From Acidobacteriaceae bacterium (GTDB lineage Bacteria > Acidobacteriota > Terriglobia > Terriglobales > Acidobacteriaceae), in the NCBI GenBank assembly GCA_003165795.1, contig PMWW01000093.1:1-38370 (forward strand): a stretch of DNA of 38,370 nt, read 5' to 3'. Below are positions 1 to 17,973 of the stretch, in pieces. The position numbers were made by a program, and so were the translations under genes. The stretch's first letter is position 1, and each line of letters opens with the position of its first letter. The notes under the pieces are model-generated. The model searched no databases. It was not told the DNA's origin and worked only from the letters and a program-made list of their open reading frames with translations.

Positions 1-43
1 CTCCAAACCAACACTTCTCCATCGCGCCGACGGAAAACCTGCG

Positions 44-1540
44 ATGACGGACGGCTTATATTCGCCAGAGGCTGAACGCGCCTGCCTGGGCGCGGCACTG
101 CTGGACAACAGCTTCGTGCGCAGTGCCTTGGACTGCCTTTCGGTCACCGATTTCGGACTATCGGCGCATCGGGAGCTGTTTGCCCTAATGCTCCAATCCG
201 AACACGAGGGACAACCGTTCGACATCCTCACTCTGGTGGAGTCTTTGCAACAACAGAAAAAGCTGGAGTCTATAGGCGACGTTGCGTACCTCAGCACTTT
301 AATTGATGGCGTTGTGCCACACCCCGGCCTAATCAAGCGTCATGCCGAAACGGTCATCCGTCTTTCGCGACTGCGCCAGATACAGAAGCTTACTGACTGC
401 ATTGGACGCTATGCTGAGGAACCTAGGGCGGACCCCGAGCAGTTGTTGGAACAGCTCGCGGGGAAGGTTGACGCTTTGCAGGCAGGATGCGACTTAGACG
501 GTAATCTCTTGCCTTACGAGCCACCCCTGTTGTCGCGACGCGCTGAGATTCTCACGCTTTCTCAAGTAGAAGCGAAGGAAGTCGATTGGCTCTGGAAGCC
601 CTACTTGGCTAACGGCATGTTGGCTATGCTTTCGGGTGATCCGGGGGCAGGTAAGACGTACATCACTCTCGCGATTTCTGCGGCGATAACGACGGGACGA
701 GTGCCGTACACAGGCGAACGGTGCGATCCGGCGGATGTGCTCTATCTCAGTGTTGAAAACAGTCCAGAGCACGTGGTGCGACCGAGATTCGATTCCCTTG
801 GAGGTGATGCGAGCCGATTTCATATTCTTCGGGGTTCGGTCGTCGGCAATGGTGAGAAAGCCGAAAGGGGCAGCGTTCGGCTCTCCGATATCCGGCTCCT
901 GCGGGACGCGTTGCAACAGAGCAAGGCGCGACTCGTGATCGTCGATCCGATACAGTCCTACCTGGGCGCCGAGGTGGATGCGCACCGCTCCAATGAAACG
1001 CGCCCCGTCATGGATGGATTGTCTCGCCTTGCCGAAGAGTTCGGTTGCTGCATCCTGCTCGTCCGGCACTTGAGCAAAGCACCAACCGGAAAGGCAATTC
1101 ACCGCGGGCTCGGGAGCATTGACCTTACCGGGGCCGTGAGAACCGAATTGCTCGCAGGCTGCTCGCCGGATGACGCAGCGCAACGTGCGCTAGTGCAGGT
1201 GAAATCGAATCTCGGCCAGTTCGGTCCGTCACTGGGGTACACCATCGAAGCCGATGGCACGTTTAGATGGACGGGCGAATCAGAACTCACGTCGGCTGCA
1301 CTTCTTGCGCCAGAATCGAACGACGGCGGAGCCGGAGCAATGGCAGAGGCCAAGAACTTCCTTTCGAGTGCGCTCGCCCAGGGCGCACGGCTGGCAAAGG
1401 ATGTTGAGGCCGAAGCTCGGCAGGAAGATATCAGCGAACGGACTCTGAAGCGGGCCAAGAAAGAGCTAAGAGTGCAGTCTCGCAAATGCGGCATGACCGG
1501 CGCATGGGAGTGGGCGCTTCCCGAAGGTTGCCAAACATGA
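44..1540 (+). CDS. DnaB-N-domain / RepA-like AAA ATPase (mobile-element replication protein)
   Basis: A 498-residue protein. Residues about 7-105 resemble the N-terminal domain of replicative helicase DnaB (PEAERACLGAALLD start). Residues about 180-400 form a RecA/RepA-type ATPase: Walker A GDPGAGKT at 198-205, Walker B RLVIVDP at about 296-302, and a sensor-like LVRHLSK near 342. The tail (about 430-498) reads like the winged-helix end found in many phage and island ATPases (ISERTLKRAKKEL). Such proteins probably load or act as helicase in replication of plasmids, phages or integrative elements. No primase or integrase is visible beside it, but the window begins just upstream. The position inside the putative tRNA-Ala island fits a mobile-element role. 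The family call is firm; the exact function is inferred. Confidence 0.8.
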   Translation: MTDGLYSPEAERACLGAALLDNSFVRSALDCLSVTDFGLSAHRELFALMLQSEHEGQPFDILTLVESLQQQKKLESIGDVAYLSTLIDGVVPHPGLIKRHAETVIRLSRLRQIQKLTDCIGRYAEEPRADPEQLLEQLAGKVDALQAGCDLDGNLLPYEPPLLSRRAEILTLSQVEAKEVDWLWKPYLANGMLAMLSGDPGAGKTYITLAISAAITTGRVPYTGERCDPADVLYLSVENSPEHVVRPRFDSLGGDASRFHILRGSVVGNGEKAERGSVRLSDIRLLRDALQQSKARLVIVDPIQSYLGAEVDAHRSNETRPVMDGLSRLAEEFGCCILLVRHLSKAPTGKAIHRGLGSIDLTGAVRTELLAGCSPDDAAQRALVQVKSNLGQFGPSLGYTIEADGTFRWTGESELTSAALLAPESNDGGAGAMAEAKNFLSSALAQGARLAKDVEAEARQEDISERTLKRAKKELRVQSRKCGMTGAWEWALPEGCQT

Positions 1541-1959
1541 CCGAAGAGTGCCAACAAATAGTCTTGGCATTCTTCGCGGAACTTGGCCCTCTTCCCGCGT
1601 GAGAATCCTAGTCAGACAAGGCGGAGCACTTCGGGCAGGGGATGCCGATTCGGTTCGGCGAGAGGCTCACGGCATCTGGTTTTAGGCGGATGATTCGATG
1701 CGGGGAAAGAAGTATGCACACTGTTCTCCTGTGCGATAATTCGCGCAGGAGTGCGCGCCCCGAAGAGCGCCGGTGCTGTCTAATCCATCTTTCGCCTATT
1801 TGGTCCCGCTGATCTCTTGGCGGGGATTCGGGACACACAACGCATCGTTCCAGATCGGAGCGTATGCCGATGTGTGTCCGAAGTCAAGAAGCACGTTCTG
1901 CGATTCGTTCGTTGCTGGCGGGAGTCCCATCTCGTGTCAGGTCTCGGAGGTTGATTGCA
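1541..1959. other. Intergenic region with an inverted repeat
   Basis: No convincing gene is seen here. The one clear structure is an inverted repeat at 1726-1751. The following gene probably starts at 1960 rather than at the upstream ATG 1864, so this stretch is its 5' region. Confidence 0.5.
1726..1751. repeat. 10-bp inverted repeat (hairpin or operator)
   Basis: Arms CTCCTGTGCG (1726-1735) and CGCGCAGGAG (1742-1751) are complementary except at one position and enclose the loop ATAATT. No T-tract follows, so it is not an obvious terminator. It could be an operator or an RNA hairpin upstream of the DUF3800 gene. Confidence 0.5.
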
Positions 1960-2715
1960 GTGCTCCAGTGTTTTGTTGATGACAGTGGGAGCGACCCGCA
2001 ACCCGACAGCGTCTTCGTCCTCGCCGGATATGTGATGGAAGAGGCGAGCTGGGAAGACTTTGCGGACAAGTGGGATGCAGAGCTAGACAGGCGACCAGCG
2101 ATTCCTTATTGCCGCATGTCGGCTGCAGAGGAGGGATCCGGCCCGTTTCTGGGAATTGATGAGCCCTTCCGGAAGATGAAGGTAAGAGATTTAGCGAACG
2201 TCGTGCGGCAGAGTTGCCCAACTCCACTTGCTATTCGCATGATGTGGAGAGACTATGCGGAGGTAGTAAAAGGCAATGTTGACCCTCGTCTCGACAATCC
2301 CTATGCATTTCTCTTTTTCAAAATCCTCGCCATGAACCTACACCTACAAAAGCTAGGTAATCAAGTGACTGATTTTGGTTTTAAGCCCGTCAACTTCGTT
2401 TTTGATGATCAGGGGCCCGCCGGACTCAAATGTCTAGACTGGTACGGTGCGCTCAAAGAGCGTGTGGCCGAACCAGAGCGCACTGTTATCGCTAACACTC
2501 CAGACTTCCGAGATGATCGGGACGTGACTCCGCTTCAGGCGGCGGACATGCTTGCTTGGCACATCCGACGTGGGCACTCGTTTCCGAATGAAGACCGGGC
2601 CGAGGTGTTCGGGTTACTGAATCCCCTTGGAATATTGGTGTATACCTACGAGCCAGAAGAACTCCACCGAGTCGTTGAAGCTTGGAATACGCGCTTAGAC
2701 CCAAATACCATCTGA
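1960..2715 (+). CDS. DUF3800 domain protein
   Basis: The N-terminus VLQCFVDDSGSDP, followed by FVLAGYVM, matches the start of DUF3800 proteins, where an acidic pair opens a presumed RNase H-like fold. The C-terminal part contains LQAADMLAWHIRR, another typical DUF3800 motif with conserved Asp. I chose GTG at 1960 because GGAGG (1946-1950) lies nine bases upstream and the family normally begins at this motif. The open frame extends upstream to ATG 1864, but those residues look non-coding. The molecular function of the family is not established; members are frequent on mobile elements and in defence islands. Its place between a RepA-like ATPase and the att remnant agrees with island cargo. Codon use is more AT-rich than in the chromosomal genes to the right. 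Confidence 0.75.
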   Translation: MLQCFVDDSGSDPQPDSVFVLAGYVMEEASWEDFADKWDAELDRRPAIPYCRMSAAEEGSGPFLGIDEPFRKMKVRDLANVVRQSCPTPLAIRMMWRDYAEVVKGNVDPRLDNPYAFLFFKILAMNLHLQKLGNQVTDFGFKPVNFVFDDQGPAGLKCLDWYGALKERVAEPERTVIANTPDFRDDRDVTPLQAADMLAWHIRRGHSFPNEDRAEVFGLLNPLGILVYTYEPEELHRVVEAWNTRLDPNTI

Positions 2716-2778
2716 GGCGTGTTTACTGTTCGTCTTTTGAGGCTTGATTTCTCTTTTCGAACTAGTAGTCCAGCCAAG

Positions 2779-2804
2779 AAAAATCCGCGCCGCCAGAAGG
2801 CGGC
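2779..2804 (-). terminator. Possible terminator of the leftward exported-protein cluster
   Basis: A perfect GCCGCC/GGCGGC hairpin with an AGAA loop (2789-2804). On the minus strand it is followed, after a few bases, by a run of five T. It lies just beyond the stop codon at 2835. The gap between stem and T-run makes it imperfect. Confidence 0.4.
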
Positions 2805-2834
2805 TTGGGTCCGGGGGACGCGCAGGGCCCAAAA

Positions 2835-3599
2835 CTATTCCCATGGGTCGTCTGACGATTTGAAGTCTTTGAGCAAGCCCGCCTTCAATACCATTGCCGC
2901 GCCGACTTGAATACTTCTGTCCTTTTCATCCTCATCAAACTTTGATGCGAAGTCGCTATTGATTTCACTGAGCAACTGCGCACGTTGTGCCCTTGTGATG
3001 ATTAGGTGACTAGCGTGATTCTGTGAGTCCGCCTTGCTGTCTACAAGAATCCCGAAAATCAATGGAGTAGCCTCAAGCAGAGCATTATCAATATGATCGA
3101 GTTGGGCGGACAATTGAGGTACCTCGGCGGCTAGTTTGCCGTAGTCAACACCCCGCTTTGGATCACCAATAAAGGCATCGCTGATGTCGATTAGTCTCTG
3201 ATATATCTCGATCTTTCGCTTGTAGAGTCCAACTATTGATGGAACGAGTTTCTCGAACGGAGGGTATAGGCGCATTCCTTTCAGAATGTTGACATCTAGT
3301 CTTAGTTCCAGTTGCATTCGCGTACTGCCATAGATCATGTTCCAGAATTTATCAGAGGGCGAACCTTGCATTAGGCTTTGCTCTGAGGAATCACGGATAG
3401 TCTCGATTGCAGATAGTTCACGAACGTATTCGGTTACAAAGGCAACGCTGGCTTGGGCCTTCGCCTCCTGGCTCTCCACTTGTTTCTTGGGTGTGGCGAT
3501 GCTCCGGGAAGACTTGCTATCGGTTGACTGTGCCGGTGCTCCCACCGCCCCCGCCAGCAGCGCCAAGGCCACGCATAGGCCAAGGAATCGTGCTCTCAT
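2835..3599 (-). CDS. Exported protein of unknown function
   Basis: A 254-residue protein that I do not recognise. It begins with a signal peptide (MRARFLGLCVALALLAGAVG, then APAQS), predicting Sec export. The mature part is charged and helical with no Cys pairs or known catalytic motif. ATG at 3599 is preferred over the one at 3620 because a purine-rich GGAAAGGGAAAG lies directly before it and the signal peptide then starts cleanly. It is the last gene of a four-gene leftward cluster of exported proteins, 33 bases after the preceding gene, and likely shares its transcript. Function unknown; periplasmic or extracellular location inferred. Confidence 0.7.
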   Translation of the reverse strand: MRARFLGLCVALALLAGAVGAPAQSTDSKSSRSIATPKKQVESQEAKAQASVAFVTEYVRELSAIETIRDSSEQSLMQGSPSDKFWNMIYGSTRMQLELRLDVNILKGMRLYPPFEKLVPSIVGLYKRKIEIYQRLIDISDAFIGDPKRGVDYGKLAAEVPQLSAQLDHIDNALLEATPLIFGILVDSKADSQNHASHLIITRAQRAQLLSEINSDFASKFDEDEKDRSIQVGAAMVLKAGLLKDFKSSDDPWE

Positions 3600-3632
3600 G
3601 CTCTTTCCCTTTCCACACAAGTTTCAGCAGGA

Positions 3633-4121
3633 TCACTTCGGCTTTTCGATGAACTCTTTCAGGTGCTTGGCACACGCCTCAGCCGCGCTCTGACTCTGGT
3701 GAGTAGTTCCATGCTTATCAACAGAGTAGGCAAACACGACTTGGGAAATTTTGGCATCTATCACGGAAATGCTCGCATTGGTTGATCCGAGAGCAGCACG
3801 AGCGGCCTTACGCGCCTCAGCCCGCTCTTTCGATTGTTCCCAGGTATCATTGCCGCCATTATTGACGTTGGAGTTATTGACGACTACTGCTGGTTGGCTC
3901 GGCGTCTGATGGCTTACGGTGCTTGTGATGATGTATTCCGCCTTGCTCTTGTCGGCGACCACAATCAAAGCGACTTTCTTTTTTGCGATGGCTGCGGCGA
4001 GATACGTCTCATATCCCCCCATCGGCTCAATGTAGACGGTAGCTCCGCTTTTGATTTGCTGCGCCTGAGCAAAGCCGATAGCACAGCACGCGAACAGCAG
4101 AAACGCCGAAATGCGGTTCAT
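3633..4121 (-). CDS. Exported protein of unknown function
   Basis: A 162-residue protein with signal peptide MNRISAFLLFACCAIGFAQA. The mature part starts with a predicted alpha/beta segment (GATVYIEPMGGYETYLAAAI, then KVALIVVADKSKAEYIITSTV), as in small periplasmic proteins that resemble CsgG/LpoB-type folds; this resemblance is only by eye. A Asn/Ser-rich linker and a charged helix follow. The start at 4121 is supported by AAAGGGA a few bases upstream; the open frame continues to 4223 without a plausible start signal. It is the third gene of the exported cluster. Confidence 0.65.
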   Translation of the reverse strand: MNRISAFLLFACCAIGFAQAQQIKSGATVYIEPMGGYETYLAAAIAKKKVALIVVADKSKAEYIITSTVSHQTPSQPAVVVNNSNVNNGGNDTWEQSKERAEARKAARAALGSTNASISVIDAKISQVVFAYSVDKHGTTHQSQSAAEACAKHLKEFIEKPK

Positions 4122-4156
4122 AGGGTTCCCTTTCGCGTCAGAGAGTGTATGCGCTT

Positions 4157-4444
4157 TCATCGGCAGACCGATTTCCATTCGTACTTCTTCGTGTTTTCGT
4201 TGTAAACCTGCTTCATTACGCAATTAGAAGTTCCTACTGGCGGAACTCGTGGGGGTGCAATAGGTTTGATCGAGGGCGGCACGATTGGACAGATCCTCGG
4301 AGCACAAATGGGAGGAAGGTCTATCGACGATGAACAAAGGGCTTTTACTTGTCCGTTCACGCAAGCGCAGTGGCAGGAACTTGTGTTTTGCGCCCCGGCG
4401 AAACCTGCTGTGAAAACAAGTAAGAAGAACACAAAGCGTCTCAT
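4157..4444 (-). CDS. Small Cys- and Pro-rich exported protein
   Basis: A 95-residue protein with signal peptide MRRFVFFLLVFTAGFAGAQ. The mature part is short and has Cys in CHCAC, at VKALC, in ICAPRIC, SNCV and at the end SVCR, around a Pro/Ile-rich middle (PIVPPSIKPIAPPRVPP). The spacing suggests disulfides or metal binding after export. An AAGGGGGA sequence precedes ATG 4444. It lies 18 bases after the PEGA gene and is probably co-transcribed with it. No family recognised. Confidence 0.6.
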   Translation of the reverse strand: MRRFVFFLLVFTAGFAGAQNTSSCHCACVNGQVKALCSSSIDLPPICAPRICPIVPPSIKPIAPPRVPPVGTSNCVMKQVYNENTKKYEWKSVCR

Positions 4445-4462
4445 ATTCGTCTTGGTCCCCCT

Positions 4463-5308
4463 TCACTGCTCCAGTTCGGCGGCTACCGTGACCTTTCCAG
4501 TGGAAACCGTGAGCTTCCGTTCCCAGGGCTTGTAGCCACGCTTCGAAATCGTGACCGTGTGCACTCCGGCGGCAACCGCGAGTTCTGAGGGAGTGTCTCC
4601 GACGAAATTACCATCAACGGAAATCTCGGCTCCCGCTGGGTTTGAGGTGATCTCAAGTTGCGCGCCAGTCGGATTGCTCTGCGAGGATACTGCGGAGACC
4701 CCGGCAACGTTGGGGGCTGGGGGTGGTATAGGTGCAAACCTGGCGGCATCAAGTGGCATCACGCCGTTCACATACGCGGTAATTTCAGTGCCTTTCGGAA
4801 TTGTGATGTCTTTGCCGTGCATGAAGAGAAAGAATGGAGCGGCAGGCCAGACTATTAAGCTCGTCGCTACGATTCCAGCCGTCATCGCCCCGGTATGCTC
4901 ACCGCCCTTCGTTTCCTTCACTCCCCTGAGTGTCGCTTTTTCGCTATCGGCGAGCTTGACGTAATCAATTTCTATATCGAGCTTCCCACCCCGCGCCATG
5001 CGCTTTTTGTGCTCGGCATCAGTGATCGTGCCGATAGCAGTGCTGCCCTTCGGTATGACAACAACGTCGCCGACCTTCACTTCTTCCAATACCTCGAAGT
5101 CGATGTTGTCTCCCGTCTTCGCATCGGCTGAGCTGAGATTCCGGTTCAATCGAAGCTTTACGGGAGTGCCATCATCGAGGACAAGCTTATTGGAGCCCGA
5201 AGAGGTCGCGGGCGGTTGAGGAGTAAGTTGTTGGGCTCCTGAAAGAGAGGTATGCGCGAGAAGCGCAGAGAGCAGAACAGCACAGATCGGCCGGCCAGTG
5301 GAATGCAC
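4463..5308 (-). CDS. PEGA-domain exported protein
   Basis: Probably 281 residues from GTG 5308, which has GGAGGG just upstream and gives a clean signal peptide (MHSTGRPICAVLLSALLAHT). An alternative GTG at 5353 would add 15 residues. Residues about 43-130 (DDGTPVKLRLNRNLSSADAK, then VVVIPKGS) form a beta-rich domain often seen in acidobacterial exported proteins. A hydrophobic segment (TAGIVATSLIVWPAAPFFLF) follows. The last about 65 residues are a PEGA domain (LEITSNPAGAEISVDGNFVG, then GVHTVTISKRGYKPWERKL), a surface or envelope adhesion-type fold found with S-layer proteins. It heads the leftward cluster of exported proteins. Partner unknown. Confidence 0.75.
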   Translation of the reverse strand: MHSTGRPICAVLLSALLAHTSLSGAQQLTPQPPATSSGSNKLVLDDGTPVKLRLNRNLSSADAKTGDNIDFEVLEEVKVGDVVVIPKGSTAIGTITDAEHKKRMARGGKLDIEIDYVKLADSEKATLRGVKETKGGEHTGAMTAGIVATSLIVWPAAPFFLFMHGKDITIPKGTEITAYVNGVMPLDAARFAPIPPPAPNVAGVSAVSSQSNPTGAQLEITSNPAGAEISVDGNFVGDTPSELAVAAGVHTVTISKRGYKPWERKLTVSTGKVTVAAELEQ

Positions 5309-5649
5309 GATCCCTCCGATAGGGCGGCAGGCACGGAGACCCGCGGCACCCACCAGAATTACACTCCTGCGGGCTGCGGTTTGTCAGTGACCGCTGACGC
5401 CGGGGCGACTGATGAAGGCAAGACCAGAAAAGACCGACACCGCGCATGATACCCGTCGCCTGTCGTTACGACAATCCATGACGAACGCAAGGCAAGGATT
5501 ACCGAGGCTGTCACGGAGTAAACTCCCGCGATGGAAGCTAGTGTGTCAGATCATGTTCTGATTCCACCACCATGACAAGGAAATCTGCCCAGCCCGGCGA
5601 GAGCGGGCAAAGTACGTCACAGCCTCCGCGCCGGACAAGCTAGCGACAA
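5309..5649. other. Intergenic stretch without a recognised gene
   Basis: About 340 bases upstream of the PEGA gene. It holds only a short perfect hairpin (TGTCG TTA CGACA near 5461-5475). A promoter for the leftward exported cluster presumably lies here, but I cannot pin it. Confidence 0.4.
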
Positions 5650-5892
5650 CTAATGGCGGTCGGGGCCAGCGGGAGGGGGAGCGGGCGCGCCAGGGAGCCA
5701 GCCACTAGGCAGCGAAGCCTCATCATCGGCACCTCCAAGATGCGCCTCAACCAAGCGCAGACCATAGAGCACGGTCGCGACATAACTTGCACGGCCCACT
5801 TGGGCAGCCAGGCGCGCCTGGGCTCGACGCAACAGCTCCACGTCGGCAGCGTTTAGCGCCAGACCAAGACGAGTGATCTTCTGTGTAGCCAT
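5650..5892 (-). CDS. Small possible ribbon-helix-helix protein
   Basis: An 80-residue protein. The start ITRLGLALN resembles a single DNA-binding beta strand, followed by two predicted helices (AADVELLRRAQARLAAQV and SYVATVLYGLRLVEAHLG), the layout of ribbon-helix-helix regulators or mobilisation accessory proteins. The tail is Pro/Gly-rich. GGTGGGG lies just before ATG 5892. It sits close to the att remnant, where excision and mobilisation regulators are often encoded. No specific family motif confirms this, so the call is tentative. Confidence 0.5.
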   Translation of the reverse strand: MATQKITRLGLALNAADVELLRRAQARLAAQVGRASYVATVLYGLRLVEAHLGGADDEASLPSGWLPGAPAPPPAGPDRH

Positions 5893-5954
5893 AGCCCCAC
5901 CAGTGCAGCATAACCGCTATGTCGGATTTTCGCACGGGTGAGCACGGGGATTTT

Positions 5955-6082
5955 GTGTCACGGTTTGTGTCGTAACCCTTCCATCCCTGCTCGTGTCGGA
6001 GTGTCTCTCGTGCTATCGCTCAGGGATATAAGAAAGGCAGCGAACATGCCTGAAACCCGCATGAACACTGCCTGTCTGTGTC
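5955..6082. repeat. Cluster of GTGTC repeats near the att remnant
   Basis: GTGTC occurs at 5955, 5967, 5993, 6001 and 6078 on the plus strand, within 130 bases and 46 bases from the att core. They could be arm-type recombinase sites; this is an inference from position and repetition only. Confidence 0.3.
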
Positions 6083-6127
6083 GTTCTGTTTCGCTCTATG
6101 TCTGGCCGTCTCAATTCGCCCTTGGAA

Positions 6128-6172
6128 ATGGCATGGAAGAGGTCGCCGGTTCGATCCCGGCCAGGTCCACCA
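6128..6172 (+). repeat. att site: displaced 3' half of tRNA-Ala(GGC)
   Basis: The sequence reads as the 3' half of a tRNA: anticodon loop ATGGCAT (6128-6134, anticodon GGC), stem GGAAG, variable loop AGGTC, T-stem GCCGG, T-loop TTCGATC, T-stem CCGGC, acceptor strand CAGGTCC, discriminator A and encoded CCA (6170-6172). The loop is identical to E. coli tRNA-Ala(GGC), and T at position 70 fits the G3-U70 alanine identity pair. The sequence 5' of the loop does not pair with GGAAG and no D-arm is present, so it is not a functional tRNA. A break at the anticodon loop is a known crossover position for tyrosine recombinases, marking this as the distal end of an island. Confidence 0.75.
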
Positions 6173-6440
6173 AATCTAACCGATTATTTAGTGACCGTTT
6201 TGAACTCCCTTTCAAGACTACCTCACGCAAGATTCACCCTCAACGATGGGTGGTGTGACTTTTGTCGCCTCGGGGAACGTCGACCTACCCATTTTGCCAG
6301 GCTTGCTCACCGCTTCCGGAAGCTTACCGCGAAAGACCAGGACGTGAGCGGAGGCGGGTAGGAAGAATCGATGCTGGGGATGCACTCAGTGCTGTCCGGC
6401 GCAAACGCATTGCCGCCCTGAGTAGAATTGACCTGCCACC

Positions 6441-7241
6441 ATGCTCGAAAACATCAACTTGAAGAAGAGGCTGTCCCGGGAAGAATACAAACGCATCGTC
6501 CCCGGCTTGCAGTTGCGTCTGTACGACCTGGAGAAGGCGTGCTGGGACAATGCCGTACCTACGCTCATTATTTTCGAGGGCTGGGACGCGTCGGGCAAGG
6601 GAACCACGATAGCGGCGTTGACCCAGCGCCTGGATCCGCGCGGCTTCAAACTGTACCCGATCACCGCTCCTCGGACCTACGAGCAGCAGCGTCCGTGGCT
6701 GTGGAGGTTTTGGTTGAAGGTGCCGAACCGCGGCGAGATGGTCATCTTCGACCACAGCTGGTACGGTCGCGTACTCGAGGAGCGGGTGGAAGGAACGATT
6801 CCGGAGAAGTCGTGGCGGCAGGCGTTCCGCGACATCGTGGAGTTTGAACGCATGCTGGCCGATGACGGTACGGTGATCCTGAAGTTCTTTCTGCACATCC
6901 GCAAAAAGGAGCAGAGCCGACGCTTCGAGATGATCGAAGCAGACCCGCTGGAAGCATGGCGGGTGACTAAGGCCGACTGGGCCCGTCATAAGAAATACGG
7001 CGAGTATCTAGCGGCAACCGAGGAAATGCTGGAGCTGACCGAGTCAGAATATGCGCCCTGGACCATCGTCGAAGCCACCTCCAAGTCGCATACCCGGAGG
7101 AAGGTGTTTGAGGCCCTCATCAGCGCCGTCGAAAAGAACCTGGGCCCCAAAGCGCCGCCGCGTATCGAGGTTTCCGCCGAAGCCTCCAAAGACGCCGAAT
7201 TACGTGCCGCCATGGAATCCTTGGCCGGAGGCGGGCGCTGA
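6441..7241 (+). CDS. ppk2: Polyphosphate kinase 2 family protein (first of a tandem pair)
   Basis: A 266-residue PPK2-type phosphotransferase, moving phosphate between polyphosphate and nucleotides in the cytoplasm. Walker A is GWDASGKG (47-54), and the second motif is FDHSWYGR (103-110), where the usual Arg after Asp is His (H105). The lid region (RKKEQSRRFEMIEADP) is present. Its stop TGA overlaps the ATG of the next gene by one base, so the two are co-translated. No strong ribosome binding site precedes ATG 6441. The class (AMP, ADP or both as acceptor) cannot be decided here. Two-domain PPK2 enzymes such as the polyphosphate:AMP phosphotransferase of Pseudomonas have comparable units fused. 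Confidence 0.88.
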   Translation: MLENINLKKRLSREEYKRIVPGLQLRLYDLEKACWDNAVPTLIIFEGWDASGKGTTIAALTQRLDPRGFKLYPITAPRTYEQQRPWLWRFWLKVPNRGEMVIFDHSWYGRVLEERVEGTIPEKSWRQAFRDIVEFERMLADDGTVILKFFLHIRKKEQSRRFEMIEADPLEAWRVTKADWARHKKYGEYLAATEEMLELTESEYAPWTIVEATSKSHTRRKVFEALISAVEKNLGPKAPPRIEVSAEASKDAELRAAMESLAGGGR

Positions 7242-8017
7242 TGCTGGAGACGGTGGACCTTAGCCACACTCTGGACCGTCAGTCGTATGTGCGCGAAGTG
7301 ACGCGCCGCCAGATTCAACTGCGGCAGCTGGGATACCAGGTTTACTTGCAGAAGCGCCCGGTCATTATCGTGTTCGAAGGTTGGGATGCGGCGGGCAAGG
7401 GCGGTGCGATTAAGCGCATCACCGAAAAGCTCGATCCGCGCGGTTACGTGGTTTATCCCATCAGCTCACCGCACGGCGAAGATCGGAGCCGGCATTATCT
7501 GTACCGTTTCTGGAGACGGCTGCCGGAACGCGGACAGATCGCCATCTTTGATCGCTCCTGGTACGGCCGCGTGCTGGTGGAGCGAGTGGAAGGGTTCGCC
7601 GGCGAGGCGGAATGGAAGCGCGCCTACAAGGAGATCAACTCCTTCGAACGGCAACTGCGCGACTTTGGAGTGGTCCTGGTGAAGTTCTGGATCCACATCT
7701 CGCGCGAGGAACAGCTGCACCGCTTCGAGGAGCGCAAAGCTATCGGGTACAAGGCGTGGAAGCTGACCGAGGAAGACTGGCGCAATCGCGAGAAATGGGC
7801 CGCCTACGAAGAAGCAGTGGAGCAGATGTTGATCAAGACCAGCACCGGCACCGCCCCCTGGACGCTCATCGAAGGCAACGACAAGTATTGGGCGCGGACC
7901 AAGGTACTGGCCAAGCTGGTGAAAATTCTGTCAGCCCAAATGGGGTACGAGCCGACTGATCCGCTGCGCCGGGCGGAAGCAGAGAAGAGCCGTCGGAAGG
8001 GTAAACGCACCAGCTGA
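7241..8017 (+). CDS. ppk2: Polyphosphate kinase 2 family protein (second of a tandem pair)
   Basis: A 258-residue PPK2 protein with all canonical motifs: GWDAAGKG (47-54), FDRSWYGR (103-110) and lid residues SREEQLHRFEERK. The motifs sit at exactly the same residue numbers as in the upstream copy, which points to duplication. ATG 7241 overlaps the preceding stop (TGATG), with GGAGG nine bases upstream, so translation is coupled. With intact motifs it is probably the more conventional enzyme of the pair. The C-terminus is basic (SRRKGKRTS). Substrate preference cannot be read from sequence alone. Confidence 0.9.
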   Translation: MLETVDLSHTLDRQSYVREVTRRQIQLRQLGYQVYLQKRPVIIVFEGWDAAGKGGAIKRITEKLDPRGYVVYPISSPHGEDRSRHYLYRFWRRLPERGQIAIFDRSWYGRVLVERVEGFAGEAEWKRAYKEINSFERQLRDFGVVLVKFWIHISREEQLHRFEERKAIGYKAWKLTEEDWRNREKWAAYEEAVEQMLIKTSTGTAPWTLIEGNDKYWARTKVLAKLVKILSAQMGYEPTDPLRRAEAEKSRRKGKRTS

Positions 8018-8197
8018 GGGGGGAGCCCACCGCTTCCGCTGCGATTCCCCTTTAAGAATGCGGCCTGGAAGGCGGTCAGCTCGATGTGATGTCTGCTCGG
8101 GTCGAGTTCGGGTAACTTAGCCCCAATGGTCCTACGCGTAACACGAATCCACGCTCGGCAACGGAGCTGCGCGTCAACCACGAAAAGAGGCCTCCTG

Positions 8198-9712
8198 ATG
8201 AGCTCGCCATTTCCCCAGCTGACGCCGGAAGAGGCTGCCGCGCACATCGAACACGGACAAGCCGTTGGGTTCAGCGGCTTCACGCCGGCGGGAGCGCCGA
8301 AAGCAATTCCTTCCGCTATTGCAGCGCGTGCCGAGGCGGCCCATCAGCGCGGCGAGCCGTTCAAGATTGGGGTGCTTACGGGTGCGTCCACCGGCCCCTC
8401 GCTTGACGGCGCATTGGCGAAAGCCAACGCCATCAGTTTTCGCACCCCTTATCAGTCTGACGCGAACCTGCGCGCCCGCATCAACGCCGGCGACACGCGC
8501 TTCTTCGATATGCACTTGTCGATGCTGCCGCAGGCGGTGCGGTATGGATTTCTCGGGCCCATCGACTGGGCAATTCTCGAGGCCTGCGACATCACGGCAG
8601 GCGGAGGCATCGTTCTGACCTCGTCCGTCGGTGCGGCGCCAACCTTCGGCAGGCAGGCCCGCCGCGTGCTCATCGAGCTGAACCGCAAACATCCGCCGGC
8701 GTTGCTGGGTATGCATGACATCTACGAGCCCGCCGACCCTCCGCATCGCGGCGAGATCCCCATTTTTCACGTCTCCGACCGCATCGGCTCGGCCATTATG
8801 CAGGTCGATCCGTCACGCATCGTGGGCATAGTCGAAACCGACCGCGCCGATGAAACCGCGGGCTACGATGCGCCCACCCAGGAGACGGAAGCCATCGGAA
8901 ACCATGTCGCCGAATTTCTCGCCACGGAAATCGCCGCCCACCGTCTGCCCTCGTTCGTGCCTATCCAGTCCGGCGTGGGAAATCTCGGCAACTCTGTCTT
9001 GAGCGCCCTGGGATGCCACCCGCGAATCCCACGGTTCGAAATGTATACCGAGGTCCTGCAGGACTCGGTTGTCGAACTCATCTGTTCCGATCGCGTCAAG
9101 TTCGCCAGTACCTGCGCTCTCACTCTTAGCCCACCGGCACTGGAGCGGATCTACAGCGATCTGAAGTTCTTCCGGCAGCGCATTCTGATGCGCCCGCAGG
9201 AGATCAGCAACCATCCGGAAGTCATCCGCCGCCTCGGCCTCATCTCCATCAACACTGCCATCGAAGTCGACCTCTTTGGCAACGTGAATAGCACGCACAT
9301 CATGGGCCGTCAGATGATGAATGGCATAGGGGGCTCAGGTGACTTCACTCGGAATGCCTACCTCTCCATCTTCACCTGTCCGTCAACCGCTAAGGGCGGC
9401 AAGATCAGCACGGTGGTTCCGCTGGTCAGCCATGCCGACCACAGCGAGCACTCTGTTCAAGTGGTCGTCACCGAGCATGGCATCGCCGATCTTCGCGGAC
9501 GATCACCCCATGAGCGCGCCGAGTTGATCATCGAAAACTGTGCCCATCCCGAATTCCGCCATGAACTGCACGCCTATCTTCACATGGTCAAGAGTGGTCA
9601 TACGCCGCATACCTTGCGCGCCGCCTTTGCATTCCATTGCCGCTTTCTTGACACCGGAGACATGCACGGCGTCGATTGGGAGTCGCTGATCCCCGTGGCC
9701 GCAAGGCGGTAA
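8198..9712 (+). CDS. Acetyl-CoA hydrolase / acetate (succinate) CoA-transferase
   Basis: A 504-residue class I CoA-transferase of the Ach1/AarC/Cat1 family, which moves CoA between acetate and succinate or a similar acid, or hydrolyses acetyl-CoA. Seen: SGFTPAGAPKAIP near the N-terminus, the SGVGNLGNSVL segment, EMYTEVLQD with Glu285 (the position I believe holds the family's catalytic Glu), GIGGSGDF (376-383) and VTEHGIADLRGRSP. ATG 8198 is chosen over the upstream in-frame ATG 8126 because AAAAGAGG lies seven bases before it and the family starts near here. Full length for the family. Together with acetate kinase 4 kb away it suggests acetate activation or overflow. Hydrolase versus transferase is undecided. 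Confidence 0.88.
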   Translation: MSSPFPQLTPEEAAAHIEHGQAVGFSGFTPAGAPKAIPSAIAARAEAAHQRGEPFKIGVLTGASTGPSLDGALAKANAISFRTPYQSDANLRARINAGDTRFFDMHLSMLPQAVRYGFLGPIDWAILEACDITAGGGIVLTSSVGAAPTFGRQARRVLIELNRKHPPALLGMHDIYEPADPPHRGEIPIFHVSDRIGSAIMQVDPSRIVGIVETDRADETAGYDAPTQETEAIGNHVAEFLATEIAAHRLPSFVPIQSGVGNLGNSVLSALGCHPRIPRFEMYTEVLQDSVVELICSDRVKFASTCALTLSPPALERIYSDLKFFRQRILMRPQEISNHPEVIRRLGLISINTAIEVDLFGNVNSTHIMGRQMMNGIGGSGDFTRNAYLSIFTCPSTAKGGKISTVVPLVSHADHSEHSVQVVVTEHGIADLRGRSPHERAELIIENCAHPEFRHELHAYLHMVKSGHTPHTLRAAFAFHCRFLDTGDMHGVDWESLIPVAARR

Positions 9713-9820
9713 AGACAGCGGTCACGGTCCACCCATCCTACAAGAAGTTCAAAATCAATATTCAAGACCAGCTTGGAAAGTTCGTTCCGGAGCCGGTATC
9801 GGGTTCCTCGGAATAATCTT

Positions 9821-10843
9821 TCAGGATGTCGTGTCGTCCTGGCGAGCGCGGGGCAAGGTGAAGAGAATGATGAAGCTAACGAGGGCCAGGATAGCGACGA
9901 TGAAGATGCTGCCTTCGGGGCCGGTAGTTCCACCGCTCAGGATCGGTTTGCCTACGGGGTGGGTGGCGAGCAGACGGTGCTGCACCATGATTCCGCTGTC
10001 GGCGACGCCATAGAGAAAGGACTGGGCCCAGTCCCATGAGGCGTGGAAGCCGATGGCCCACCAGAGCGAGCCGGTGCGCCAGAGGCTGAAGCAGAAGACC
10101 ATAGCGGCCAGGCCGGCGGAAAGCAGTCCGATCGGTGACTCGCCTGGGTTGCCGCTGTGACCGAGGCCGAAGAGGATAGAGAAGATAACGGCTGCGGTCC
10201 AGAAGCCTAAGGCTTTGCTGCGGCGGGTTTTGAAGGCCCACTGATAAACGCCGGCAAGACCGCGGGCCAGAGTGTACTGAAGGTAGCCGCGGGTGAGGTA
10301 CTCTTCGAGCAGGCCGACCAGGAGGAAGCCGAGCAGCCAGATGGCTCCGTAACGCAGAATGGCGCTGCCAAAAATGAGGCGGCTGTCGAAAACCAGAAGT
10401 CCGGCCTTCCAGAGCGTCAGGACGAGCAGAGAGAGACAGGTAACTCCCCACCCCAATCCGGCGAAGAAGTGCAGGAGCTTGCGGCTACCGCCGAGGCCGT
10501 AGACGGAGTTGGGACGTCTCTCGATCTTCGACATGATCCAGGTGGCTAGAACGGTCAATAGGAAGGATATGGCTTCCCCGATCAACGCGGACGTGGCAGT
10601 CATCTCCGAAGTGGTCTTCGCAGTCTTTGGCGCAGGCGGGTGGATCTTGTGGCCGATGACGGTGGCACAGAAGAGCATCGTAGCCAAGAGGGCGATGAAG
10701 ATGAGCAGGCTCCAGCCGGCGCGAAGGCCGTCTTTGCCAACAAAAATTCTACGGAGAGCCGACGGCTGCTTGGGTGGCATTGGTTCGGCGGGCGTCAGCG
10801 TTGCGTCGCGATAAGGGGACAGACCGTCGGTCTCACTGTTCAA
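9821..10843 (-). CDS. CPBP (CAAX-like) intramembrane metalloprotease
   Basis: A 340-residue polytopic membrane protein. The CPBP signature is clear: EEYLTRGYLQ (the EExxxR motif), then FGLGHSGNP and GFHASWDWAQSF, whose His/Glu residues bind metal in this family. About eight hydrophobic segments flank them. Members include CAAX prenyl proteases and bacteriocin-immunity-type proteins; the substrate here is unknown. I place the start at TTG 10843, which has GCGAGGAAA seven bases upstream, rather than TTG 10858. The gene stands alone, convergent with the CoA-transferase. Confidence 0.8.
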   Translation of the reverse strand: MNSETDGLSPYRDATLTPAEPMPPKQPSALRRIFVGKDGLRAGWSLLIFIALLATMLFCATVIGHKIHPPAPKTAKTTSEMTATSALIGEAISFLLTVLATWIMSKIERRPNSVYGLGGSRKLLHFFAGLGWGVTCLSLLVLTLWKAGLLVFDSRLIFGSAILRYGAIWLLGFLLVGLLEEYLTRGYLQYTLARGLAGVYQWAFKTRRSKALGFWTAAVIFSILFGLGHSGNPGESPIGLLSAGLAAMVFCFSLWRTGSLWWAIGFHASWDWAQSFLYGVADSGIMVQHRLLATHPVGKPILSGGTTGPEGSIFIVAILALVSFIILFTLPRARQDDTTS

Positions 10844-11017
10844 GGGGTTTCCTCGCAAGAGTTTATACGCAGGGAAGGGTTCGCGGGTTCCGACGTGTAT
10901 TTAGAAAGTGGTAACCGTTGGTTTGGTGGCGATCATTGCGGAACAAGTCAAGGCCGTCCGCGTGCGTGAAGTGTTGAAATGCAGGGCCAGACATTGCGCC
11001 ACCATGCGCCAGGGCCC

Positions 11018-11046
11018 AAAAAAGGGAGCGCCGTGGCGCCCCCTTT
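11018..11046 (-). terminator. Rho-independent terminator of the S53 protease gene
   Basis: On the minus strand, AAAGGGGGCGCC and GGCGCTCCC pair around a two-base loop (one A/C mismatch), directly followed by six T (complement of 11018-11023). It lies 17-45 bases past the stop at 11063. Confidence 0.85.
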
Positions 11047-11062
11047 CTCTGCAAAGAACCGT

Positions 11063-13264
11063 CTACTTTCCGCCGTGATGACCTGGCGGCGGCCAGTTCG
11101 TCACCAGGTTGTAGGCGTTCACGGTACCGATTCCCGTGGCGAAGTCCCAACCGGTGGTGGTCCCATATGCCGGCTGATACGAGTCGTTGGAAGTGGACAG
11201 CACACCAAGCAAGCCGTCCGACATATAGCAATTGTAGGGCGTTCCGTTAAGCGGCAGACAGTCCACGTCCATGTCACCCAGCGTCACATCGTAGAAGGTG
11301 CAGGAGCTGGAAGTGCCGTTCCCCAGAGTGGAATTACAGGCGGCGTTGCCAGATCCTCCGTATTCACCGTTAGCAAGCTGGTAGTACACGGTGTTGGGAT
11401 TGCCCCAGGTGCTGTCTGTCGCCTGGTTTACCAGCAACTGTATGCCGGCCATGATTGGCGAAGAGAACGAGGTCCCACCTGCTCCAGGCCAATTCGCGGG
11501 TGAGCCGGTGCACGGAACACCTCCGCCTGCAGGATCGGAGTAGCAGAAAACATAGTAGTGGCCCCAGATGCCATTGGCTGCAAATAGCGAGACGTCTGGA
11601 ATATCGCGCACTCCGTCGGACGGATTGCCCAGCACGCTCTGCCACGAGGGTTTTGGATAACCCGCACAGGTGCCGCTAGCTACACCTTGGACGGACGGCG
11701 TACCCGTGGCACAGTTGCTCGGCCCACCGCTGCCGCCGGCGTCATCCACGAAATAGACAAAGCCCAGGGCATTCGAGAAAGATGCCGTGCAAAATCCCGA
11801 GATACCGTAGGTAATACTCGATCCCGAGTAGTATTGCGCAAGCAAAGCACTGGCGCAGGAATCGTTCCAGGGGATCTCTGGGATGTAGGATTTTGCCGAC
11901 CCATAATACTGGTTGTTGTTGGCATTCCAGTAGGTGCCATTTTCGTTCAAGTAGGTATCACCATAATCGGTCCCACCCACCGCCACATTGTAGGGAGTGG
12001 ATGCAAACCCGCTGACGGTGATGCCATGGAAGGCGACCGCCTGGTCCGCATCGGAGCTGGCCGCGCCCTCGTCACCCGAGGAGACGAAGACGGAAACACC
12101 TTCCGCGACCGACTGCTGATAAAGTCCCTCAACGTACTGGTTGAACGCTTGCCCAAGATAGGACTCGGACTCGCCGTAGCTGATGCTCACCAGGTCGGGA
12201 GGAGTGGATTCCTCCAGCAAACCCTCCAATGCGATGAAGCCGCCAAAATTCAACGCCGTGTCGACGCAGGAGGCCAGTTGGATAGCTGCGTTAGGCGCGG
12301 CCGCGCTGGACCATTCCACATCAAGTGCGGCTTCCACGTCGTCCCCATTAATGCCGGGATCGGCGCAGCTGCTGCCCGGATGCACTTGCACAAAAGTTGC
12401 GGACGGGAACTGCTCCGAAAGACCAAAAGTGCTGCGGAACGAATTCCAATCACCCGGGTAGTTGTACACATCGGTGTCTTCAATCAAGGCGATAGTCCGG
12501 CCCAAACCGGTGTAGCCGGCCGTGAACGCCGAGCTTAAATTGTAGATGGTGGCAAGATCGGAGGGCACCACCGCATAGTAACCATCGCCAAGGGTGTAAT
12601 CGGACGAGGGCCTCCGTCCAACACCCGAGCGCAAGGGTGGTTTCATGTTGGCCAGCATCGGATGGGGCATGAAGTTATTCAGTGAAACGATGCCGATGAC
12701 CGCCGGAGCGAGAGCAGCCGGAATTTTCGGATCGCTCATGTTGGCGATGTGGTGTGTTCCGTTTACATTCAGCTCATGAATTTCGGTGTGGAAAGCGGCT
12801 TCCACTTGGGCTGCATTGCCGGAGAAATCAATCACGGTTCCGGTGGAATAAATGCTGTTGACCACAAAACCGTACGACACCAACCAGCTTTTCAAAGTGT
12901 CAATGTCCGGTTGCGCCAGTCCGTAAGAAGCTCCCAGTTGCTTGGCGGAAAGCCATTGGTGGAAATTCGGCGAGGTGGGATTGTGCAACTCTGCAATATA
13001 CTGCGCCAGCGAGCTTTCCAATTCCGACGGCCGTCGCAGTTGCAGTAACATGTGGTCTAGCGCGAGGCCACCCGATACCGTCCCCCGGTCATTATTCTTG
13101 TTGGCTTCGGGGCGGGTGTTGCCGGTTAAAGTTACCAGCTTGGACTCGTCAATCTTTTGCGTGATAAGCGGACGCTTGGCCTCTGCACTGGAAGCAAGAT
13201 TGAAGGTGAAGACAAATGCGACGACGGCAAGGAGAAATGGGGTACCCCTAGCCCGGTGAATCAT
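11063..13264 (-). CDS. Secreted sedolisin-family (S53) serine-carboxyl peptidase
   Basis: A 733-residue preproprotein. Signal peptide at 1-30 (MIHRARGTPFLLAVVAFVFT), then a pro-kumamolisin activation domain to about 200 (HQWLSAKQLGASYGLAQPDI). The catalytic domain has EAALD with Glu and Asp four apart, SSGDEGA with the oxyanion Asp, and GGTSFSSP with Ser at about 599. The C-terminal DVTLGD and GWDFATGIG resemble the calcium site. These acid-active endopeptidases work outside the cell after pro-domain removal. ATG 13264 has a strong AAGGAGG just upstream; the open frame runs further to 13498, but without a signal peptide at that start. Such proteases are abundant in soil Acidobacteriota and fit protein scavenging at low pH. 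Single gene with its own terminator. Confidence 0.93.
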   Translation of the reverse strand: MIHRARGTPFLLAVVAFVFTFNLASSAEAKRPLITQKIDESKLVTLTGNTRPEANKNNDRGTVSGGLALDHMLLQLRRPSELESSLAQYIAELHNPTSPNFHQWLSAKQLGASYGLAQPDIDTLKSWLVSYGFVVNSIYSTGTVIDFSGNAAQVEAAFHTEIHELNVNGTHHIANMSDPKIPAALAPAVIGIVSLNNFMPHPMLANMKPPLRSGVGRRPSSDYTLGDGYYAVVPSDLATIYNLSSAFTAGYTGLGRTIALIEDTDVYNYPGDWNSFRSTFGLSEQFPSATFVQVHPGSSCADPGINGDDVEAALDVEWSSAAAPNAAIQLASCVDTALNFGGFIALEGLLEESTPPDLVSISYGESESYLGQAFNQYVEGLYQQSVAEGVSVFVSSGDEGAASSDADQAVAFHGITVSGFASTPYNVAVGGTDYGDTYLNENGTYWNANNNQYYGSAKSYIPEIPWNDSCASALLAQYYSGSSITYGISGFCTASFSNALGFVYFVDDAGGSGGPSNCATGTPSVQGVASGTCAGYPKPSWQSVLGNPSDGVRDIPDVSLFAANGIWGHYYVFCYSDPAGGGVPCTGSPANWPGAGGTSFSSPIMAGIQLLVNQATDSTWGNPNTVYYQLANGEYGGSGNAACNSTLGNGTSSSCTFYDVTLGDMDVDCLPLNGTPYNCYMSDGLLGVLSTSNDSYQPAYGTTTGWDFATGIGTVNAYNLVTNWPPPGHHGGK

Positions 13265-13619
13265 GAAGCCTCCTTCGAATGAGCTCTTAAAGTTATACCC
13301 AGTTTGGTCTTGAAACCAGCAAGGAAATAGAGCATACATCTTGGCGTTAGCCGGTCTCGATTGGCACCCGGAGATCCAGCCAACCCCGGCAACCCATCGC
13401 CTACAAGGGGCGCAAACAATCTCCTGGCTGCGGTTTGCCGGAAAATCCTGCTTATTTCCGATGGCACACACTATATCCCCGTCGAAGGATTCCCGCACAT
13501 CACTTTTTGGCGAAGCTCGCGGATCGGTATGCCGTTCGGCCCGTGTAGCACGGTGGCCCAGCTGTTACCATCCTCGGTATCCCGTATCCTAAGAAACCGG
13601 GACACAGGAGTTTGCCGGG
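13265..13619. other. Divergent region between S53 protease and acetate kinase
   Basis: About 350 bases without a gene, expected to hold promoters for both directions. No clear -35/-10 pair stands out. Confidence 0.4.
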
Positions 13620-13655
13620 ATGCAGGATGTCCCAGACAAAGAACTCACATCATGA
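13620..13655 (+). CDS. Putative 11-codon leader ORF overlapping ackA start
   Basis: ATG at 13620 opens [11 protein letters not shown] and stops at TGA 13653-13655, which overlaps the acetate kinase ATG (ATGA). AGGAG at 13606-13610 is nine bases upstream, a good ribosome binding site, whereas ackA itself has none. This suggests translational coupling or a leader peptide. Too short for codon-based support. Confidence 0.4.
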
Positions 13656-14896
13656 ACGTACTGATACTCAACTCGGGAAGTTCCAGCCTGAAGTTTCAGG
13701 TGATTGCCACCGACCTTGATCGCATCAAGCAACATAAAGATGACCGCTTGTGCAAGGGTGAAGTGGAACGCATCGGCGGGGAAGCGATTGTGACCTTGCA
13801 GGTGGGCAAGCAACCCAGGCAGAAGTTCACGGCCCCGCTGCGCGACATTTCTGCGGCGCTGGATTTTATAGTGCGACACATCGTCTCCGATCAGTCGGGG
13901 ATTGCGGAGATCCAGGGTGCGGCAGATATTCACGCCGTCGGTCATCGGGTGGTGCATGGCGGCGAACGGTTTACCGAATCGGCCATCATCACCGATGACG
14001 TGCTGCAGGGAATTGAGGATTGCATCGATCTGGCGCCGCTGCACAATCCCAATAACATCAAAGGCATTCAAGCGGCGCGTGAGCTGTTCGGCAAGGCGCT
14101 CCCCCAGGTGGCGGTGTTCGATACCGCCTTTCATCATTCGCTGTCCGAGATGGCTTACCTTTATGCGGTACCGTATCACCTCTACCGGCGGCATCGCATC
14201 CGGCGCTATGGTTTTCACGGAACCTCGCACCGCTATGTCGCTTATCGCTATCGCGCCCTGCGCCGGCTGAGCCGGGAGCAGACCCACGTCATCACCTTGC
14301 ATCTGGGTAACGGCTGCTCGGCGGCTGCCATCCGCGGAGGCGCCTCGGTGGACACGTCGATGGGCATGACGCCGCTGGAAGGGCTGGTGATGGGAACCCG
14401 CTCCGGTGACGTCGATCCCGCAATCGTGAATCTGATTGCGATCAAGGAAGGCCTGTCCGCGCAGGAGGTCGAAACGCTTCTGAACACGCAATCCGGTCTA
14501 CTCGGCATTTCCGGACTCAGCAACGACATGCGCATCCTGCAATCGGAGCTGAAAGAGCACGACGACCGGCGGGTGCGGCTGGCCATTGATGTCTTCTGCT
14601 ATCGCGCGCGCAAATACATTGGCGCGTTTCTGGCGTGTATGGGAGGAGCGGACGCGGTGGTCTTCACCGGCGGCATCGGCGAGAACTCACCCGCGATCCG
14701 GGCCGGCATCTGTGAGGGTCTGCAGTGGGCCGGTCTGCAACTGGACGACAAACATAACCAGGAGACCAATGCCCGCGAAGGCAAGATCAGCACCGACGAC
14801 TCGCGCCTGCAGGCGTATGTGATCCCCACCGATGAAGAGCTGCTGATCGCGCGCGACACCGTGCGCTGCATTTTGGGCGAGCCGCATCCGTCGTAA
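13652..14896 (+). CDS. ackA: Acetate kinase
   Basis: A 414-residue enzyme interconverting acetate + ATP and acetyl phosphate + ADP in the cytoplasm. All family motifs are seen: NSGSSSLKF at the start, [64 protein letters not shown] and FTGGIGENS. The length is normal. ATG 13652 matches the family N-terminus; the frame is open far upstream to 13361, but this is not coding. There is no ribosome binding site of its own; an 11-codon leader ORF ends across its start. No phosphate acetyltransferase gene lies beside it, so the partner could be elsewhere, possibly a phosphoketolase; this is inference. Confidence 0.95.
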
Positions 14897-15121
14897 GGAT
14901 GGCTTCTTGCGCTTTATTACTGGTGCTCAGCCGGTGGCCTTTCTTAGAGTATCTTCGGATGGCGGACATTAGGATCGCGGACATATTAACCCAACTTTCT
15001 CGTTGCCAAGAAGGCGCCCCGCTGAGGATGACAGAATGAGGTTGGCTTTTTCGGCGTGGCTGAAGCTGCGCCCCTTCAACGCAGCCCACTACTTGCATTT
15101 CGCGTTGGATACGAGGTGGCG
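14897..15121. other. Intergenic region with a fragment of a dispersed repeat
   Basis: Nothing coding is seen. The stretch GCTGAGGATGACAGAATGAG near 15021-15040 resembles pieces of short repeats scattered in many Acidobacteriota genomes; this is from memory and unverified. Confidence 0.3.
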
Positions 15122-15478
15122 ATGATCGGACAAATTCACCCCTGGTTGGCTGTCGGAGTAGCGGCGTCAACGGCGGCGACGGACGCCGTCTATGTCATGT
15201 TTAGTGCGGCTGTGTCATCCCGCCGGCGCGTGCCGGCTGCGACCTGGAGCAGTGCGTGGTATCTGCTGTCTGCGTTTGCGGTGATCAGCTACACCCGCAA
15301 CTGGGTTTACGTTTGCTTTGCTGCGTTGGGCTCGTGGGTTGGGGCCTATGTCTCGATGACCGTGCTCCCCCGACCGACAGTCACGCCGGAGGTCTCGACC
15401 ACGGCGAGCCCAAGCCATCGGCCTAGCAGGCTGCTGGAAAAGTGGGGTTCGGGTAAGCAGCCGCGGGCTAATGGGTGA
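15122..15478 (+). CDS. Small membrane protein of unknown function
   Basis: A 118-residue protein with three hydrophobic segments: HPWLAVGVAASTAATDAVYV, WSSAWYLLSAFAVISY and WVYVCFAALGSWVGAYVSM, then a soluble basic tail. ATG 15122 is chosen because GAGGTGG lies just upstream. It has no recognised catalytic motif; it could be a transport accessory or simply a conserved inner-membrane protein. Its last 11 bases overlap the end of the convergent TPR gene. Confidence 0.6.
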   Translation: MIGQIHPWLAVGVAASTAATDAVYVMFSAAVSSRRRVPAATWSSAWYLLSAFAVISYTRNWVYVCFAALGSWVGAYVSMTVLPRPTVTPEVSTTASPSHRPSRLLEKWGSGKQPRANG

Positions 15479-17345: not shown

Positions 17346-17513
17346 CGGGTTTTGGGCGACACTGCCGGTCTCGTTGCCGAAAAGTATATCCGCTGCAGCT
17401 TCCAGTTGAGATCGAACAGTTCCCAAGCTTGTGAAACGGGAAACGAATAGCTTTCCAGCATGGAGTTTCCCGTCGATCACATGTTGGTGTGATGTGGTAG
17501 AATCCTCGCACTC

Positions 17514-17858: not shown

Positions 17859-17895
17859 CTCAAGACCGCAAACGCTTTAGCCGACGGGTTCCGTG

Positions 17896-17926
17896 TGCTC
17901 GCACCCTTCGGGGTGAAGACTGAGCA
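17896..17926 (+). other. Stem-loop upstream of the TonB receptor gene
   Basis: An inner stem CACCC/GGGTG around a short loop (17902-17915) is enclosed by TGCTC/GAGCA (17896-17900 with 17922-17926). No T-run follows, so it may be an untranslated-region structure rather than a terminator. It does not match a riboswitch I know. Confidence 0.4.
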
Positions 17927-17973
17927 TGAAACCCTACGTACGTTCATTTCAGAGCATTAGGATCTAAGGAACT

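Follow-up and report, generated by a model that had tools for sequence, protein, structure and literature searches.

The islands collected in the Islander paper (PMC4383910) are the closest described counterparts of the locus analysed here, and in that paper's table 2083 of 3919 islands belong to the class with an anticodon-centred site. The usual overlap and core are matched by the 7-bp anticodon loop with its stem, as the parts consulted of a review on archaeal recombinases note, and the parts consulted of a paper on tRNA fragments give a similar case, PYG1, with 44-bp repeats. Our locus lies in the window, the whole stretch of 38,370 nucleotides that was analysed, which is the entire contig C52 of a draft Acidobacteriaceae genome (G000; 208 contigs, 99.35% estimated completeness). 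It is very probable that an element with a tyrosine integrase has inserted into the tRNA-Ala(GGC) gene of this genome, and that another contig, C207, and the window hold the two ends of that one element. Like the Islander islands, as far as the consulted parts of that paper describe them, the element has a probably remade tRNA beside the integrase, a displaced 3' fragment at the opposite end and an anticodon-centred site. Unlike them, it is split over two contigs and carries an arm-like repeat common to elements in several tRNA genes. Set beside the island definition in the same parts of the paper, the 3' fragment at 6128-6172 lies downstream in the same orientation (the order being taken from the relatives G003 and G007), a tyrosine integrase gene lies inside the island (C207:653-1689), and at one end stand the first 47 bases of the tRNA, on C207, the gene being complete in relatives that have the element. 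The length, for which the definition gives 2-200 kb, would come to about 8 kb with C207:1 next to window:1; in the assembly the two are not contiguous. The integration itself is of the ordinary, already known tRNA-targeted type; the element is new, and an arm-like architecture shared across tRNA targets is the more interesting by-product.

The segment at 6128-6172 reads ATGGCAT GGAAG AGGTC GCCGG TTCGATC CCGGC CAGGTCC A CCA. In four relatives of the same genus (G002, G004, G005 and G008) the tRNA-Ala(GGC) gene is intact, and its 3' half agrees with the segment at all 45 bases, the identity starting at the first base of ATGGCAT; the copy in a further member of the genus, G003, differs at 2 bases. 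The bases to its left (CCTTGGAA) do not continue the tRNA. Neither ARAGORN nor Rfam at gathering level called a tRNA at this place, as is expected of half a gene, and a low-threshold Rfam scan gave weak partial matches only (tmRNA and others). A 25-base part of the segment matches nothing else in the window at up to 3 mismatches, nor anything in 100 shuffled sequences. The segment is most likely a piece of the chromosomal tRNA gene that was displaced to the far end of the element. The features of the window are collected in Table 1.

Table 1. Features of the window that belong to the element, its presumed attachment site and the adjoining chromosome
Feature	Position	Strand	Basis or remark
Far-end part of integrative element (integrase end on C207)	1..6127	.	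Comparison
DnaB N-terminal domain and AAA_25, replication helicase-like	2..1540	+	Open at contig start, ATG at 44
DUF3800 protein (cargo)	1864..2715	+	Pfam
Protein without Pfam match (cargo)	2835..3620	-	N-terminus signal-peptide-like by eye
Protein with weak DUF4357 match below cut-off (cargo)	3633..4223	-	Pfam
PEGA-domain protein (cargo)	4463..5353	-	Pfam
Small ORF, 80 aa	5650..5892	-	No Pfam or PHROG match
Tandem repeat TTTGTGTC-N4-TTTGTGTC-N-TAAC, presumed integrase arm-type sites	5952..5976	+	Putative role
TGGAA, element-side half of core site	6123..6127	+	Putative role
Anticodon loop ATGGCAT, putative 7-bp crossover region (overlap)	6128..6134	+	Putative role
Orphan 3' half of tRNA-Ala(GGC), A32 to CCA	6128..6172	+	Sequence match
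Chromosomal flank downstream of original tRNA	6173..38370	.	Comparison; begins with two PPK2 genes
Two PPK2 genes	6441-7241, 7241-8017		Pfam

The other half of the tRNA is found on C207. The 5' half (GGGCCTGTGGCGCAGCTGGGAGCGCGCTTCC) occurs once in the genome, at C207:1708-1738 on the minus strand, and goes on for 16 correct bases (ATGGCATGGAAGAGGT), through the anticodon loop and 9 bases beyond it, before a scaffold gap (NN) that is followed by the coding sequence of a tyrosine integrase. The first 47 bases of this tRNA are intact and the last 29 fall in the gap, which has also taken the C-terminus of the integrase (PF00589, E 2.8e-16); the integrase gene faces the 5' half, the two being convergent. 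Joined to the window's 3' half, the C207 5' half is called as one 76-nt tRNA-Ala(GGC), with G3 opposite the T70 to which the earlier note had drawn attention. In G007 the stretch equivalent to the gap takes in 29 bases of tRNA, a spacer of 14 bases and the final 53 residues of the integrase. The gapped tRNA on C207 is probably complete. A second full 45-base copy does not occur in the assembly: a 38-base part of the 3' half has a single occurrence at up to 3 mismatches, and ARAGORN, run on the 29 loci of this genome from the tRNA search, called no Ala(GGC), the sole alanine tRNA being Ala(CGC). The missing copy is best read as an assembly effect, because the opening 16 bases of the 45-mer are present on C207 and break off only at the run of N. 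In a draft genome, a tRNA fragment and the absence of the full gene can both stem from one element that the assembly has divided.

The assembly holds no sequence that joins C207 to the window, and a search for overlap between C207:1 and window:1 gave nothing beyond the 16 tRNA bases that they share and short matches that look like chance. Positions 1-115 of C207, which include the start of a small HTH protein, are 86% identical to G007 1879-1995, where the full counterpart is an HTH_17 protein; a search of G000 for the missing HTH stretch gave matches only at C207:1-115 and on contig C61. The DnaB-AAA frame begins 2.3 kb from A32 in C61 and 2.1 kb from it in G005, both of them elements in tRNA-Ala(CGC) whose frames are 29% identical to that of the window. 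On the G007 scale C207:1 lies about 2.0 kb from A32, so the start of the window would fit, with a few hundred bases missing. C207:1 and window:1 would then be near neighbours and the element about 8 kb long in all.

The relative G003 provides what is, by its gene order, the empty site. A single intact tRNA-Ala(GGC) (G003:C520, locus L107, free of N) is preceded by homologues of C207 2291-2829 and 3116-4324 and followed by homologues of window 15112-15368 and 20379-21723, the main frames sharing 64-77% protein identity on the C207 side and 69-90% on the window side. This order indicates that C207 and C52 were once neighbours across this tRNA. Only G003, itself 71% complete, shows both flanks. 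In the stretches compared at protein level, genes of C207 but none of the window lie near the tRNA of G002 and G004, and in G005 and G008 there are no genes of either kind. The distance from the tRNA half to the first gene shared with G003 is 8.9 kb in the window as against about 1 kb in G003, so further rearrangements also took place. The PPK2 pair directly beside the element (6441-8017) is likewise adjacent in G003 and G006.

A full element with homologous ends is found in G007, where the 45-mer stands at 1-45 and 16562-16606 of contig C54 and bounds 16.6 kb. Its integrase is 82% identical to that of C207 over 345 residues, and its far end (16385-16607) is 76% identical to window 5952-6173, or about 70% outside the 45-mer by our own arithmetic. 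Both end types of one element, the integrase end on C207 and the far end in the window, are thus matched in G007. The region left of 6128 most likely represents acquired DNA and not an operon of the host; its G+C content is 55.4% as against 58.6% to the right. The earlier note had read 6128-6172 as a tRNA-Ala(GGC) from the anticodon loop to CCA without a 5' half beside it, and the region before it as an integrated element; the comparison with relatives that it proposed bears out both readings, with the flanks joined by an intact gene in G003. It had also placed the integrase and an intact tRNA outside the window. Both are on C207, and the intactness holds for all but the 29 bases in the gap. 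The single copy of the 45-mer, which the note had named as evidence against itself, is literally what the assembly contains; we do not count it against the reading, as 16 bases reach the run of N.

Complete relatives with the tandem repeat at both ends also occupy tRNA-Ala(GGC) in G052 (15.6 kb) and G069 (21.5 kb), and tRNA-Ala(CGC) in G005 (10.0 kb between 3' halves). The integrases of G007, G052 and G069 are 80-82% identical to that of C207, those of G052 and G069 are 88% identical to that of G007, and that of G005 is 46% identical to that of G007; the cargo of all four relatives differs from that of the window element. We inspected seven tRNA-Ala(GGC) cases chosen for having the 3' half twice on the same strand of a single contig (G007, G052, G069, G093, G121, G125 and G141, the last for its first 20 kb only). 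All seven have an integrase frame directly downstream and facing the tRNA, the 5' half of the tRNA in G007 lying beyond the contig end. Among 26 unselected loci with mostly intact genes (L035-L060) such a frame stands just downstream in three, one of them weak. The junction at the far end follows the type of integrase. The window, G052 and G069, like G007, have GAA before ATGGCAT, whereas G125 and G093, with another integrase type, have GGGACT, and G121 has TTTCC.

These comparisons suggest the following course of events. An element encoding a tyrosine integrase would have entered the tRNA-Ala(GGC) gene by recombination, with the crossover most likely in the seven-base anticodon loop. As its attachment site would carry a tRNA 3' half of its own, the tRNA at the integrase end, on C207, would have been remade, and the original chromosomal 3' half would have been pushed to the far end, where it survives as 6128-6172. 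The integrase would bind a core made up of the anticodon stem and loop together with tandem TTTGTGTC arm sites, one pair of which would lie about 90 bp from the core in the 3' end of the integrase gene and the other at the far end (5952-5976). The small HTH_17 protein encoded beside the integrase may act as excisionase, and the element may still be mobile today.

It is unlikely that the window's 3' half ends another element than that of the C207 integrase, whether in a tandem array or as a second element in the same tRNA. We keep this alternative separate since the join of C207 and window is unseen, and it overlaps partly with the single-element reading. Some relatives do combine three 3' halves with one 5' half (for example G045, G093 and G152), and the G007 element has a different AAA protein. 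Against it, the genome has a single orphan 3' half, the window junction and repeat match the subfamily of the C207 integrase, and the DnaB-AAA frame stands at the contig edge as the spacing of 2.1-2.3 kb in C61 and G005 predicts. A wrong join within the repeat could swap elements and would amount to the same alternative. As for an assembly chimera at the 45-base repeat more generally, the draft is in 208 contigs and does break at this repeat, but 5952-6127 is homologous to the far end of G007 right up to the repeat and G003 backs the right side as the neighbour region of the tRNA, and we consider it very improbable. Still less credit is due to a decayed or partly duplicated tRNA gene with no mobile element: old fragments do occur in the family, as in G012, which has a 34-base 3' repeat 86 bp after an intact gene, but here all 45 bases are intact with an edge exactly in the anticodon loop, the homology on the left runs into the end of another element, an integrase faces the 5' half, and the G003 and G007 comparison contradicts it. 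A split or intron-bearing tRNA, whose halves on different contigs meet in the anticodon loop and would be joined at the RNA level, can be dismissed, group I introns included, as on C207 the 5' half extends across the whole loop and 9 bases further, the gene is uninterrupted in relatives and a low-threshold Rfam scan gave no intron family match around 6128-6172. The G012 repeat (L100, G012:C42:96463-96582) begins after the anticodon stem and is perhaps a scar.

The 3' half occurs in 134 of 150 family genomes (up to 2 mismatches) and the 5' half with loop in 127 (up to 3 mismatches). In 32 of the 150 genomes a 5' half is present and is outnumbered by 3' halves, by a hand count of matches in which individual extras were looked at in some cases only and from which 7 genomes with 3' but no 5' matches were left out, G016 among them having an intact variant gene. 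The extra 3' half can lie far off, 107 kb away in G023 and 1.25 Mb in G095. In G014 it is on the strand opposite the intact tRNA-Ala(GGC), which simple integration does not give; the extra half and the intact gene there (L097 and L098; G014:C23:315582 and 334612) are 19 kb apart, and an inversion is possible.

The tandem repeats are probably arm sites of the integrase, to judge from their place and their repetition in the sequences. In the window the repeat starts 176 bp before A32, and at the far ends of G007, G052 and G069 it starts 165-177 bp before it; at the integrase end of these three it begins 90 bp beyond A32 and overlaps the 3' end of the integrase gene, where it encodes the protein tail YDT-x-HDT. 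The corresponding position on C207 falls inside the scaffold gap. In G121, whose integrase is of an unrelated type, tandem TTGTGTC likewise occurs at either end, at one of them with a slightly different spacing. Its 3-kb stretch between an intact tRNA-Ala(GGC) and a 3' half (L154, G121:C1:18900-23000) may be a minimal element or a case of arm sites common to different integrase types. A search of the own genome for the tandem TTTGTGTC/TTGTGTC pattern gave two matches, in C52 and in C61 beside tRNA-Ala(CGC), and none for the reversed pattern. Across the 150 family genomes the repeat (at most 1 mismatch) occurs at 32 sites in 18 genomes, and its reversed control at none.

The surroundings were classed for 30 of the 32 sites, by our own hand count. 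An intact tRNA lies just upstream of the repeat at 18 (8 Ala(CGC), 6 Ala(GGC), 3 Asp(GTC) and 1 Val(GAC)), with a gap of 44-46 bases in 17 of them and of 68 in the other (L165). At seven sites, the window included, an orphan alanine tRNA 3' half is near the repeat, its T-arm beginning 184-196 bases downstream; one site (L188) has a tRNA-Ala(CGC) 3' half without a good 5' half, and at four (L171, L174, L180 and L186) neither is present, although a tRNA-like stretch of a different kind follows after 239 bases at L174. On balance we favour the view that this bacterial family harbours a family of small integrative elements with one shared integration architecture and several tRNA targets. The architecture would, with similar confidence, comprise arm sites about 90 bp inside the tRNA end and 165-177 bp inside the far end, and we think it rather probable that such elements have moved among the anticodon loops of Ala(GGC), Ala(CGC), Asp(GTC) and Val(GAC), keeping their sites and exchanging replication and cargo genes. 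The repeat is an easy means of looking for related elements in a group of bacteria that has received little study, and of examining how integrases switch tRNA target yet keep their arm sites.

No relaxase or conjugation family was found by Pfam among ten proteins of G007 and the element proteins of the window, which covers part of the own element; six window proteins gave no PHROG match to packaging or capsid genes. PADLOC matched none of four cargo proteins of the window, and its match of the DnaB-AAA protein to mad8 was weak (8.9e-4). Among the cargo of G007 are AAA_25 and DnaJ-domain proteins, a protein that matches a TIR effector and an Mrr-type restriction enzyme; this type IV enzyme and the TIR-effector match (L096, G007:C54:5903-11339) are possible defence cargo. 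Apart from the element ends, 49 bases at window 5434-5481 are 92% identical to L096 8725-8773; the stretch is absent from the other element loci compared, save for a 19-base match in L150. That locus, in the Acidobacteria MAG MAS3.bin168 (JAJZME010000045.1), was the one match in a search of genome contigs for relatives of the DnaB-AAA protein (50% identical). It too has an integrase frame beside a tRNA, but the tRNA is Glu(CTC) and the integrase falls outside the C207 group and points the other way.

The hitcher elements (integrative mobilizable elements, phage satellites and tycheposons; PMC11389934) are, as described in the consulted parts of that paper, likewise small, with an integrase and here likewise no transfer genes in the scan; by the same descriptions they differ from our element, whose scanned proteins include no packaging, capsid or relaxase family. 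In the viral contigs searched, neither a relative of the G007 integrase nor an exact copy of the arm repeat was found, and the 111 phage records that match this integrase all do so below 60% identity, none covering 80% of it, with 25-27% identity in the ten listed. Of the papers listed on acidobacterial islands and on arm-type sites with tRNA and anticodon, the Solibacter genome paper (PMC3174227) among them, none describes this element group in its title or opening abstract lines.

The own genome contains a second element of the same kind, in tRNA-Ala(CGC) (L109, G000:C61:14000-21421), with a facing integrase 47% identical to that of G007, HTH proteins, a DnaB-AAA protein and the same tandem repeat 89 bp after A32. 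Seven tRNA matches besides that on C207 have a facing integrase match within about 200 bp (contigs C54, C61, C89, C94, C107, C159 and C161), and the genome therefore holds many tRNA-targeted elements. In the window itself, ARAGORN also called a tRNA-Gly(CCC) at 8233-8325, probably a false positive, which overlaps an acetyl-CoA hydrolase-like gene (8126-9712) and has no Rfam match at gathering level. An intact tRNA-Glu(TTC) at 38252-38329 closes the contig, which may be broken at a tRNA here as well.
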